A stretch of 64,000 bases of DNA from Futiania mangrovi (GTDB taxonomy: Bacteria > Pseudomonadota > Alphaproteobacteria > Futianiales > Futianiaceae): the NCBI RefSeq assembly GCF_024158125.1, contig NZ_JAMZFT010000003.1, positions 124,001 through 188,000 on the forward strand, written 5' to 3'. Below the pieces are notes generated by a model, which did no database searches, was not told the DNA's origin, and saw only the letters and a list, made by a program, of their open reading frames with translations. The position numbers and the translations under genes were made by a program. Positions 24,491-38,706 of this stretch are shown here, one piece after another (within the stretch, counting starts at the first letter, position 1; every line of letters starts with the position of its first letter).

Positions 24491-25162
24491 TCAGACCGGC
24501 GTCGCAACGTCGAGCAGACCGGGAAGCGCGCCCATGTCACCGAAGACGACGGCACCCGCCGCGGCAAGGCGATCCGGCGCAGTGCGTTCGGCATAGCCCA
24601 GCGCGCGCATGCCCGCCGCACGCGCCGCGGTGACGCCCGGCACGCTGTCCTCGACGACGGCGGCGCGCTCCGGCGGGATGCCCATCCGGGCGGCGGCGTA
24701 AAGGAAGAGGTCGGGATGCGGCTTGCCGCGCGGCACGGACGAGGCAGAGAAGATCGCGCCCCGGAAGAGCGGCGCGAGACCGGTCACGCCGAGGCTGACG
24801 CCCATCTTCTCGTGGCTGCCCGAGGAGGCGACGCAGACCGAAAGGCCAGCGGCCCGCAGCGCGGCGATGGCGGCAGCAACCCCGCGCACGGGGAGCAGTT
24901 CGCGGCGGAAGGCGTCGAAGGTGCGGGCCTGCAACGCATCGAGCCAGCCAGGCGGGACGGGCCTGCCGGTGCGCCATTCGAGGTCCGACATCACGCTCTT
25001 CATTGAGAGGCCAACATAGGTGTGGACCACCTCCTCCACGGTCATGGAGAGGCCAAGCTCCCCCACGGCCTCGGCAAGGAGCGCGTTCGCCAGCGGCTCT
25101 GAGTCCACGAGCACGCCGTCGCAATCGAAAATCACGAGGTCGGGGGAGTGAACGGTGCTCAT
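24491..25162 (-). CDS. HAD-superfamily hydrolase, beta-phosphoglucomutase-like
   Basis: A 223-residue HAD phosphatase or phosphomutase. Motif I FDCDGVLVDSE holds the nucleophilic Asp. Motif II is VCVASSGS, motif III lies around GKPHPDLFLYAA, and motif IV is VVEDSVPGVTAARAAGM. A helical cap lies between motifs I and II, as in the beta-phosphoglucomutase/phosphoglycolate-phosphatase subfamily. The exact substrate is unclear. It is convergent with the DUF2264 gene (9 bases apart). Confidence 0.87.
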   Translation of the reverse strand: MSTVHSPDLVIFDCDGVLVDSEPLANALLAEAVGELGLSMTVEEVVHTYVGLSMKSVMSDLEWRTGRPVPPGWLDALQARTFDAFRRELLPVRGVAAAIAALRAAGLSVCVASSGSHEKMGVSLGVTGLAPLFRGAIFSASSVPRGKPHPDLFLYAAARMGIPPERAAVVEDSVPGVTAARAAGMRALGYAERTAPDRLAAAGAVVFGDMGALPGLLDVATPV

Positions 25163-25205
25163 GCGCGCGCCCGCAGGACAGGGCGCGCCGCGAGACGGCC
25201 GCGGA

Positions 25206-25520
25206 TCAGTGGGCTGGGCGGGCCTTGTCGCCGCGCCCGGCCTGCTCCTCGTCCTCCTCCGGCAAGCCGGCGCTGCCCCGGAAGGAGAACCACCGGCGCC
25301 AGAAGATGCCGTCGGCCGACCGGCGGAAGCGCCGCTCGATCAGGTCCATCGTGTAGACGAGATACCAGCCGCCCGCGAAGGCCACCAGAAGCCGCATTTC
25401 GGAGACGCCATAGAGGAGGCACGACACGATCCCGAACAGGGTCAGAAGAGCGAAAATGCCCGCCACGCCCATGTAAAAGCGGCGGTCGTAGCGGCTAACC
25501 CGTCTGCGGTCGTACACCAT
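25206..25520 (-). CDS. small membrane protein of unknown function
   Basis: A 104-residue protein (112 if the ATG at 25544 is used). The basic N-terminus has MVYDRRRVSRYDRRFYMG. Two adjacent hydrophobic stretches follow (VAGIFALLTLFGIVSCLLYG and MRLLVAFAGGWYLVYTM), then a positively charged and finally acidic tail (LPEEDEEQAG). I do not recognise a family. The ATG at 25520 has GGGGAC upstream. An exact CtrA-type box lies at 25569-25584, about 50 bases before the start, suggesting cell-cycle control. Confidence 0.6.
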   Translation of the reverse strand: MVYDRRRVSRYDRRFYMGVAGIFALLTLFGIVSCLLYGVSEMRLLVAFAGGWYLVYTMDLIERRFRRSADGIFWRRWFSFRGSAGLPEEDEEQAGRGDKARPAH

Positions 25521-25568
25521 CGGCGTGTCCCCGGCGAACTTCAACGGGCAGAGTATCGCCGGGCGCGC

Positions 25569-25584
25569 TTAACGGGCGCTTAAC
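25569..25584. promoter_or_regulatory. CtrA-type binding box TTAA-N7-TTAAC
   Basis: TTAA at 25569-25572 and TTAAC at 25580-25584 are separated by exactly seven bases, matching the CtrA consensus of alphaproteobacteria. It lies between msrP and the small membrane gene, both leftward, in the promoter position of the latter. Confidence 0.65.
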
Positions 25585-25598
25585 CGGGGTGCCTTGCC

Positions 25599-26609
25599 TC
25601 ACATGTAGAGCGCACGGGTGTCGGGTATGTCGGCGTAGAGCCCCGCCACCTGCTCCCCATAGCCGTTGAAGAGCAGCGTCGGCACCTTGTCGCCGGTATG
25701 CAGGATGCGTTCCTCCGCCTGCGACCAGCGGGGATGCGGCACCTCCGGGTTAACGTTCGCCCAGAAGCCGTACTCCTGCGGCAGAAGCTCCTCCCAGAAG
25801 CTGACCGGACGCTCCTCCACGAAGCTGATCCGAACGAGCGACTTGATCGACTTGAAGCCGTACTTCCAGGGCAGGACGAGGCGCAGCGGCGCGCCGTGCT
25901 GCTGCAGGATGGAGTGGCCGTAGGTGCCGGTCGCGATGAAGGCGAGGTCGTTGGTGGCCTCGGCCATGGTCACGCCCTCTACATAGGGCCAGGGATACCA
26001 GCTCTGTTTCTGGCCGGGGGCGATGCTTGCGTCTTCGAACGTCTCGAAGCGCACATATTTCGCGCCCGACAGAGGCTTCGCCGCCGCGACAAGGCGCGCG
26101 AGCGGGAAGCCGGACCAGGGAATGGTCATCGACCACGCCTCGACGCAGCGGTGGCGGTAGAGACGCTCCTCCAGCTCCATCTCGCGGATCAGCGCGTCGA
26201 CGTCCACGGTCCGTTCCTGCTCCACCATGCCGTCAATGGTGACCGTCCAGGGACGCACGGGAAGATCCTGGGAGGCGCGCCAGATCTCCTTGTGGGAGCC
26301 GAATTCGTAGAAATTGTTGTAGGTGGCGTTGATCTTCTCCGGCGTCAGCTCGCGGTCGAGGGTGAAGGCCTCGTTACGCGGCGCGGGGTAAAGATCGTCG
26401 GTCGGCGTCACCGGCCGCATCAGCGGGTCGCCGGGCTTGCCGAAGAGGCTCGTCAGCACGTTGGCGCGCGCCGGCGCCGCGGCGGCGAGCCCCGCGCCCG
26501 CGGCCCCCAGGCCGAGCCCGGCCAACAGAGCGCGGCGGTTCAGATAGGCGCTTTCCGGCGTCGCGTCGGCCTCGCGCACCTCCCAGGATTTCCGGCGGCG
26601 GATCAGCAT
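25599..26609 (-). CDS. msrP: protein-methionine-sulfoxide reductase catalytic subunit MsrP (YedY)
   Basis: A 336-residue periplasmic molybdoenzyme that repairs oxidised methionines. The N-terminus shows MLIRRRKSWEV, then a Tat-type signal (NRRALLAGLGLGAAGAG). The molybdopterin domain carries the Mo-ligating Cys in YRHRCVEAWSMTIPW. GFKSIKSLVRISFVEERP and EYGFWANVNPEVPHPRW are family hallmarks. The ATG at 26609 was chosen over one ten codons upstream for its family-like start. Its usual heme-membrane partner MsrQ is not adjacent. moaD/moaE for cofactor synthesis lie elsewhere in the window. Confidence 0.93.
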   Translation of the reverse strand: MLIRRRKSWEVREADATPESAYLNRRALLAGLGLGAAGAGLAAAAPARANVLTSLFGKPGDPLMRPVTPTDDLYPAPRNEAFTLDRELTPEKINATYNNFYEFGSHKEIWRASQDLPVRPWTVTIDGMVEQERTVDVDALIREMELEERLYRHRCVEAWSMTIPWSGFPLARLVAAAKPLSGAKYVRFETFEDASIAPGQKQSWYPWPYVEGVTMAEATNDLAFIATGTYGHSILQQHGAPLRLVLPWKYGFKSIKSLVRISFVEERPVSFWEELLPQEYGFWANVNPEVPHPRWSQAEERILHTGDKVPTLLFNGYGEQVAGLYADIPDTRALYM

Positions 26610-26779
26610 GGCATGGTCTCCAGTCTTCAGGCCCGTCATCGTCCCGTCATCGTACCGAGTGAGATAGGGCGCGCGGGCTCCGCGCCCAAATCACCCTCAC
26701 GTGATCTCCTCGCCAAGCGCGGGGCGGACGTGCGACAAGGTCACGACCTCCGCACCGCTGTCAGGAGCGCCACGAGCGC

Positions 26780-28258: not shown

Positions 28259-30349
28259 TCAGGCGGCATGGGCCGAAACGATGCGCTCGGCCTCCCGCCC
28301 GCTCAATTCGGCGAGATGGGCGGGGGTGGCGGCGAAACTGCCGCAGCCTTGCGTCGCGGAGCGCACCTCGAGGATGAGGTCGCCGATCTCCGCCTGGGGC
28401 ATCTGGGCGCGGATGACGTCCCAACCCGGCCATCCCTCGCGCGGCTCGTACCCCATCAGCGCGCCCCGCCGCCCGGTGACGATGCCGGTAACGCGCGCGG
28501 TCGCGGTGTTGGGCACGAACAGTTCCACGTCCATGATCGGCTCCAGCAGGACGGGGGCGCAATCGGGCAGCGCCTCCTGCATGGCGATGCGGCCCGCGGT
28601 GCGGAACGCCTGCTCGGAACTGTCGACCGTGTGGTAGGAGCCGTCGGTGAGCGTGACGGAGAGGTCCACGACCGGGAACCCGAGCGGACCTTTCAGCAAC
28701 GCATCCTTCACCCCGGCCTCGACCGCCGGGAAATACTGCTTCGGCACGACGCCGCCCGAAATCTTCTCGGCAAACACGAAGCCCGATCCGCGCGGCAGGG
28801 GCGCCACGTCGACCACCACGTCGCCGAACTGGCCGTGGCCGCCGGTCTGGCGCTTGTGCCGGCCGCGCGCGGTGGCCGCCTTGCGGATCGTCTCGCGGTA
28901 GGGAACGGGGGCCGCGTACATGTCCACGCGCACGCCGAAGCGGCCCGATAGGCGCTCGCCCGCGACTTTGAGGTGCATCTCGCCCTGCCCGCCGAGCAGC
29001 AGCGCCCCTCCCTCCGCATGGTCGACGCGGACGGAGGGATCTTCCTCGACAAGCTTGTGCAGGGCGGCCGACAGCTTGACCTCGTCCTTGCGGTCGGCGG
29101 GCACGATCACGCGCGCATAGACCGGCGCGGGCGGGTCGCCCATCAGGCGGGCGGGATTGGCCAGCGCAGGGGAGGACGCCAGCACGTCACCCGTCGCCAC
29201 GTCTTCCATGCGGGCGAGCGCGACCGTCTCCCCCTCCCCCGCCGAGGTGCGCTTGGCGGTCTGAAGTCCCGTCATGTCGTAGAGGCCGCCCACGCGGTGC
29301 TGCCTGCCGTCGGCGGTGACGAGCGTGTCGCCCTCCTTCACCGTGCCGGAGAGCACGCGCGCGAGCGACAGCTTTCCGCCGTGCGCCGTGTGCCAGGTCT
29401 TGACCACGCCGACGACCGTGCCGCCCTCGCCCGCGCCGAGGCGGGCACGCACGCCGCCCACGTCGGGCGCCTCGTGCCGCAGCGCCTTCATCAGGCGGCG
29501 GATACCGTGGTCGTGCAGGGCCGAGCCGAGGAAGACGGGCACCACGAGGCCGTCGCGCATCTCCCGGCCGAGGGTGTCGAACACCTCGTCGCGCGGGGGC
29601 GGGATGTCCTCCAGCAATTCCTCCATCAGGTGGTCGTCGTGGTCGGAGAGACGTTCCAGCATCTGGTAGCGCGCCTCCTCCGCCCGGGCGGCGAGGCTGT
29701 CGGGCACGGGCACGACTTCCGACGGCGCATGCTCGCGGTAGACGAAGGCGCGTTCGAGCGCGAGGTCGACATAGCCGGTGGCGATGCCGTTCTCCCAGAT
29801 CGGCACCTGGCGCAGAAGCAGCGGCCGCTCCGACAGGGGCTGGAGGTGTTCCAGCAGGTCGCGCACCCGTCCCTCGCCCGGGCCGCCGTCGGACTTGTCG
29901 ATCTTGTTGATGAAGACGAGATGCGGCAGGCCGCGCGCGTCGAGCGTCTTCAGGAGCGGCTGCAGCAGCGCGGTCCTGGACGGGTCCGCCTCGGCCACCA
30001 CGATCACGGCGTCGGCGACCGCGAGGGGGCCTTCCGCCTCCCAAGCCGTCTCGACCGAGCCCGGACAGTCGAGGAACACGTAGTCCTCGTCCATGAAGCG
30101 GGCGCGCGCGGCGTTCACCTCAAGCCCCATGCCGTGGGCGCGGGCCTCGGCGCCCGCATCGCCCACGCTGGTGCCCTGGTCGACCGCGCCCTTGCGCCCC
30201 GTGGCGCCGGTGAGCGCGAGGATACTCTCCAGCAGCGTGGTCTTGCCGCTGCCATAGGTGCCGACAATGGCGATGCAGCGCGGCGCACCACGAACATGGG
30301 CGCCGCCGCCCGCCCCTCTGCCGCCTTCGGTATCTCCGGATGCAGTCAT
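28259..30349 (-). CDS. elongation factor G-like translational GTPase (divergent EF-G paralogue)
   Basis: A 696-residue protein with the EF-G five-domain layout. G1 is GTYGSGKTT. G3 reads FLDCPGSVETA, whereas canonical EF-G has DTPGH. G4 is FINKIDKSDGG. Domains II-V follow, with GQGEMHLKV, HKRQTGGHGQFGDV and GRRGALMGYEPREGW. The His that is essential for GTP hydrolysis in classical EF-G is replaced by Ser. Such paralogues occur beside a standard fusA, which is not in this window. Likely roles are ribosome recycling, stress translation or a lost catalytic function. The ATG at 30349 is supported by the start of domain I. Confidence 0.85.
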   Translation of the reverse strand: MTASGDTEGGRGAGGGAHVRGAPRCIAIVGTYGSGKTTLLESILALTGATGRKGAVDQGTSVGDAGAEARAHGMGLEVNAARARFMDEDYVFLDCPGSVETAWEAEGPLAVADAVIVVAEADPSRTALLQPLLKTLDARGLPHLVFINKIDKSDGGPGEGRVRDLLEHLQPLSERPLLLRQVPIWENGIATGYVDLALERAFVYREHAPSEVVPVPDSLAARAEEARYQMLERLSDHDDHLMEELLEDIPPPRDEVFDTLGREMRDGLVVPVFLGSALHDHGIRRLMKALRHEAPDVGGVRARLGAGEGGTVVGVVKTWHTAHGGKLSLARVLSGTVKEGDTLVTADGRQHRVGGLYDMTGLQTAKRTSAGEGETVALARMEDVATGDVLASSPALANPARLMGDPPAPVYARVIVPADRKDEVKLSAALHKLVEEDPSVRVDHAEGGALLLGGQGEMHLKVAGERLSGRFGVRVDMYAAPVPYRETIRKAATARGRHKRQTGGHGQFGDVVVDVAPLPRGSGFVFAEKISGGVVPKQYFPAVEAGVKDALLKGPLGFPVVDLSVTLTDGSYHTVDSSEQAFRTAGRIAMQEALPDCAPVLLEPIMDVELFVPNTATARVTGIVTGRRGALMGYEPREGWPGWDVIRAQMPQAEIGDLILEVRSATQGCGSFAATPAHLAELSGREAERIVSAHAA

Positions 30350-30537
30350 GGGCCGTCCTCCCGCAAGGTGTCTTGGGAAGGGCGCGAGCCCTCTGTCGTC
30401 AGGGGGCCATGGCACGCCCTCCCGGTCCGCAAAGCGTTCCACGAATGGCGCGTGCGCGCAATCGGCGTGCTTTACCGGACCTTAAGCGGCACAGGGGGAG
30501 GCTGCGGTTTGCCGGAGCGCAGACAGGACGACGCGCC

Positions 30538-38691: not shown

Positions 38692-38706
38692 TTAATTGGC
38701 GCTTTA
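38692..38706. promoter_or_regulatory. degenerate CtrA-type box upstream of the CAP gene
   Basis: TTAA (38692-38695) and TTTA (38703-38706) are separated by seven bases, one mismatch from TTAA-N7-TTAA. A further TTAA occurs in CTGGTTAAGCG nearby. It sits about 25 bases before the CAP start in an AT-rich stretch (38690-38785) that contrasts with the GC-rich surroundings. Confidence 0.35.

Follow-up and report, generated by a model that had tools for sequence, protein, structure and literature searches.

A predicted full CtrA site upstream of a family-less two-helix membrane protein gene behind msrP in Futiania mangrovi

The window studied here, a stretch of 64,000 nucleotides from Futiania mangrovi, contains three consecutive genes on the minus strand. 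The run begins with msrP, which encodes the catalytic subunit of a methionine sulfoxide reductase (25599-26639; NF003767, 415 bits, cut-off 207). It is followed by an ORF for a two-helix membrane protein (25206-25520; 104 amino acids from the ATG at 25520, or 112 from a TTG at 25544) and by a HAD-superfamily phosphatase gene (24491-25162; PF00702, PF13419 and TIGR01509 over cut-off). The phosphatase gene lies 43 bases behind the membrane ORF and is possibly co-transcribed with it. Internal to this run, in the 78-base gap between msrP and the membrane ORF, is a CtrA-type box, TTAA-N7-TTAAC, at 25569-25584 on the plus strand (TTAACGGGCGCTTAAC). Its core (25569-25583), read in the direction of the membrane ORF (minus strand), is TTAAGCGCCCGTTAA, and 48 bases separate the box from the ATG. 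The first-pass annotation had described an exact motif with the right spacing about 50 bases before the gene, and both statements are correct. The box doubles as a direct repeat, TTAAC-N6-TTAAC. Two other readings of the gap, as a terminator or as an RNA structure, were rejected: the terminator scan was empty between msrP and the ORF, and the predicted folding was no better than that of shuffled sequences (z 0.70).

The membrane ORF looks like a real gene. Scored with the codon usage of six genes of the window, which themselves reach 0.35-0.61, it gives 0.48 bits per codon in frame, and the other five frames are negative. It contains two hydrophobic stretches, and a single-sequence structure model shows two helices with a mean pLDDT of 63. 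Searches against Pfam, NCBIfam and PHROGs placed it in no family (best E-values 0.27, 0.056 and none, respectively), in agreement with the earlier description of a two-helix protein of no known family. MsrQ is a multi-helix haem membrane protein. As in the msrP-msrQ pair, the gene behind msrP in the window has the same orientation and encodes a membrane protein; however, this follower has two helices, its sole histidine is the last residue, there is no Ferric_reduct match, and it carries a box of its own. An MsrQ identity was rejected on the two helices and the lack of a Pfam or NCBIfam match and of a Ferric_reduct domain. No msrQ-like gene lies directly behind msrP in the window. The single PF01794 (Ferric_reduct) match in the genome falls in a 499-residue frame (C2:1000867), whose 119-residue stretch is without an NCBIfam match.

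The motif is rare in the window, as had been claimed. TTAA-N7-TTAAC occurs once and was not produced by any of 100 dinucleotide shuffles; the shorter TTAA-N7-TTAA also occurs once and appeared in one of the 100. When one mismatch was allowed there were 3 matches against 0.29 expected. We judged the whole genome (3,391,920 bases in 5 contigs) to be a better control than shuffles of the window. It contains TTAA-N7-TTAA at 12 places and TTAA-N7-TTAAC at 4 distinct places. In a first listing, which covered TTAA-Nk-TTAA for every k between 0 and 30 and apparently kept only the nearest partner of each start, 12 of the 48 places have k = 7; the other 30 spacings have 1.2 on average and no more than 4 (P 6e-9). 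A count of all pairs raised the total to 57. Spacing 7 again accounts for 12 of them, and no other spacing exceeds 5 (mean 1.5; P about 7e-8). The additional C carries a weaker signal, 4 of the 29 distinct TTAAC places being at k = 7 (P 0.01). The backwards control AATT-N7-AATT showed a mild excess (8 of 120 at N7, 3.7 expected, P 0.04), and TTAA and AATT differ at this spacing (Fisher P 0.002). Since TTAA pairs number 12 at spacing 7 and average 1.5 at each other spacing, chance is a poor explanation for the box; about 1.5 of the 12 N7 sites would be expected by chance, and by this count roughly 10 are not chance. Nor, so far as could be judged, is the motif equally common inside coding sequence, an outcome that would have spoken against the original reading: none of the 12 sites was placed inside a gene. 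This call is partly one of judgement, as at two loci (L037 and L042) mechanical ORFs span the site and the true start was taken to lie beyond it, while two sites touch a stop codon (C1:87773 and C2:658580).

The surroundings of the sites have a promoter-like geometry. Eleven N7 sites were oriented to their presumed targets, C2:658580 being left out. Over these, likeness to TATAAT is highest 11-12 bases after the box, with a mean best score of 3.09 out of 6, the top of 53 offset pairs. Flanks with shuffled bases score 1.67, and none of 20,000 shuffles reached 3.09; with the site of the window excluded, the value is 3.0 against 1.72 in shuffles. The offset had been spotted beforehand in these very sites, which makes this test partly post hoc. 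In the window, the -10-like hexamer is GATACT (25552-25557, minus strand), which lies 11 bases after the second TTAA, has four of six matches to TATAAT and is among the best hexamers at offset 11. If its last base is taken as -7, transcription would start near 25545. On that assumed start, position 25583, the 5' end of the box, falls at -38 and the whole box spans roughly -24 to -39 (minus strand), so that it would lie over the -35 region, the usual activating position in Caulobacter. According to PMC4287350, full TTAA-N7-TTAA motifs of Caulobacter lie near -35 and their genes track CtrA levels; for ctrA P2, the full site is at -39. The implied -38 agrees with both positions. PMC11264516 likewise gives a single site at -35 for most CtrA-activated Caulobacter promoters. 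A generic sigma-70 scan of 25150-25750, which demands a TTGACA-like -35, found no promoter and did not report GATACT; activator-dependent promoters may lack such a -35 element. The TTAAC half of the box faces away from the target gene. Because a C follows the second TTAA in gene direction at just 2 of the 11 sites (cheA and motA), the orientation of the box argues neither way.

CtrA is a master regulator that governs both cell cycle and motility in Alphaproteobacteria, and the genome encodes genes of its pathway. The CtrA gene (C1:137417-138091) matches NF045991 with 431 bits (cut-off 350); its product is 83% identical to the Caulobacter protein, and its receiver part matches PDB 4qpj, named CtrA. 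SciP is above cut-off. There is a ChpT-like protein (PF10090 over cut-off; NCBIfam below, 187 of 240) and a CckA-like protein. A segment of about 13 kb (C1:131-144 kb) holds the chpT-like gene, cheA, a CheR-like gene (named by eye), ctrA and sciP.

Eight of the 12 N7 sites have a regulatory or motility gene downstream. These genes include motA (TIGR03818, 373 bits, cut-off 304), cheA directly after the chpT-like gene, a single-domain response regulator and a sigma-54 response regulator. Several others are identified by matches below cut-off: a CckA-like PAS protein (136 bits, cut-off 1000; incomplete at the end of the locus), a kinase whose best matches are PdhS and DivJ, a DivJ-like kinase (254 bits, cut-off 1000) and a MopJ-like PAS protein (45 bits, cut-off 200). 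Three sites precede other genes, namely an EamA transporter, a Gly-rich hypothetical protein and the membrane ORF of the window, and the site at C2:658580 is flanked by two gene ends. Gene starts were assigned to ORFs on the basis of codon-position GC, domain limits and visual inspection rather than taken from a curated annotation. Control places were TTAA pairs at other spacings, merged to 24 after 8 of 36 pairs within 500 bases of an N7 site were dropped. CtrA-type genes were found at 7 of these 24, against 8 of 12 for N7 (P 0.04). They comprise ctrA, sciP, a single-domain DivK-like regulator and a histidine kinase, together with two Tad-type genes and a FliL-like gene named by eye. As CtrA-type genes also occur at control places, gene function separates the two sets weakly, and the case for a CtrA site is based on spacing first and on -10 geometry second, gene function not being used as proof. 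A survey of predicted CtrA targets across the class names signal transduction, envelope and motility as the categories most often enriched (PMC2877005).

Relatives of the membrane protein were searched for widely. The other 57 genomes drawn as relatives share only the class with Futiania mangrovi, which is an isolated lineage within the collection searched. Among these 58 genomes, including its own, the ORF found only itself, and no convincing ortholog was seen in 385 genomes of the class, again including its own. Six matches at E 0.002-0.009 in the larger set were judged to be chance: one is full of stops and five lie inside frames of 220-682 residues. A contig scan that needs exact 8-residue peptides, and so reaches close relatives only, gave 38 pattern matches, none confirmed. 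For a comparison of msrP neighbourhoods, 80 loci (632,515 bases) were kept from 589 relatives; tblastn of the ORF against loci L050-L135 gave no convincing match. TTAA-N7-TTAA occurs six times near these other msrP genes, in 5 of the 80 loci. At the locus with the best msrP match by identity (L064; 74% over residues 82-346, the contig starting inside the gene), neither the ORF nor the box was seen. In a Devosia sp. (L124, 5193-5207), a TTAA-N7-TTAA lies 205 bases behind msrP, and no ORF like the membrane protein of the window was seen there.

Taken together, the genome-wide spacing signal, the promoter geometry and the presence of the CtrA pathway genes support the CtrA reading of the first-pass annotation, as a predicted site. 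The box quite likely serves as a true full CtrA site within an activated promoter, itself located inside the same-strand gene run, and membership of the membrane protein in the CtrA regulon is a good prediction. For this box we infer CtrA binding, activation over repression, co-transcription of the phosphatase gene and the timing of expression. Phosphorylated CtrA would bind both TTAA half-sites over the -35 region and recruit the housekeeping RNA polymerase to the GATACT element. Whenever CtrA is active, and without dependence on msrP, transcription from near 25545 would then yield the 104-residue membrane protein, probably together with the HAD phosphatase. The arrangement resembles the full-site promoters of Caulobacter crescentus in half-sites, spacing, predicted -35 placement and a -10-like element behind the box, and in the CtrA pathway genes encoded in the genome. 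It differs in that the target is family-less, the promoter would be internal behind msrP, and its binding by CtrA and its timing are predictions.

Alternatively, the box could be a chance TTAA pair in a short gap, with the membrane ORF and the HAD gene transcribed from the msrP promoter. Such read-through would suit three co-directional genes that are separated by 78 and 43 bases, with no terminator seen between them; about 1.5 N7 sites are expected in the genome by chance, and no ortholog was found that could give a cross-species footprint of the box. We nevertheless consider this unlikely, because 12 sites were observed where about 1.5 were expected and because the -10-like hexamer at the site of the window ranks among the best for offset 11. 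A different possibility is that CtrA bound to the box acts as a repressor, for instance by obstructing read-through or a further promoter of the membrane ORF. CtrA does repress some promoters of Caulobacter, and half-sites over the -10 have this effect (PMC4287350); full sites there are mostly near -35 and activating. Given the predicted position of the box over -35, not -10, repression appears very unlikely. Slightly less probable still is use of the box by another OmpR-type regulator. Other CtrA-like full-length regulators are present in the genome, such as that at C1:353744 with 38% identity, but the consensus is the CtrA one published in PMC4287350 and PMC11264516, and the remaining N7 sites mark CtrA-type genes.

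With the activated CtrA promoter as the preferred reading, our best guess for the protein is a small envelope component that is restricted to the lineage and belongs to the motile or predivisional stage. A more elaborate proposal, rather unlikely as it stands, is that it forms a lineage-restricted part of the CtrA cell-cycle or motility programme, an orphan gene recruited via an internal promoter behind msrP whose product works together with the HAD phosphatase at the envelope or at a cell pole. The box would be a further case of a known promoter type, here with an orphan target. The finding links a membrane protein that is uncharacterised and seems confined to its lineage with a regulator that is well understood, from which the timing of its expression can be predicted. 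It also shows that the canonical CtrA spacing and the -35 geometry can be recovered from one genome by a simple spacing count, here in a lineage without a relative closer than class in the collection searched.

Some further sites of this type were observed. A one-mismatch site, TTTACCGGACCTTAA, is found at 30471-30485 of the window, immediately 5' of an EF-G-like gene (28259-30442, minus strand). Another, TTAATTGGCGCTTTA, at 38692-38706 (C3:162692 in the genome), is flanked by a gene for a predicted secreted protein (minus strand, CAP-like by eye) and by a UvrB-like gene (plus strand, by eye). Elsewhere in the genome, five TTAA sites are packed into 50 bases (C2:252582-252629), 5' of a gene whose hypothetical product is Gly-rich and acidic and has a signal-like N-terminus.
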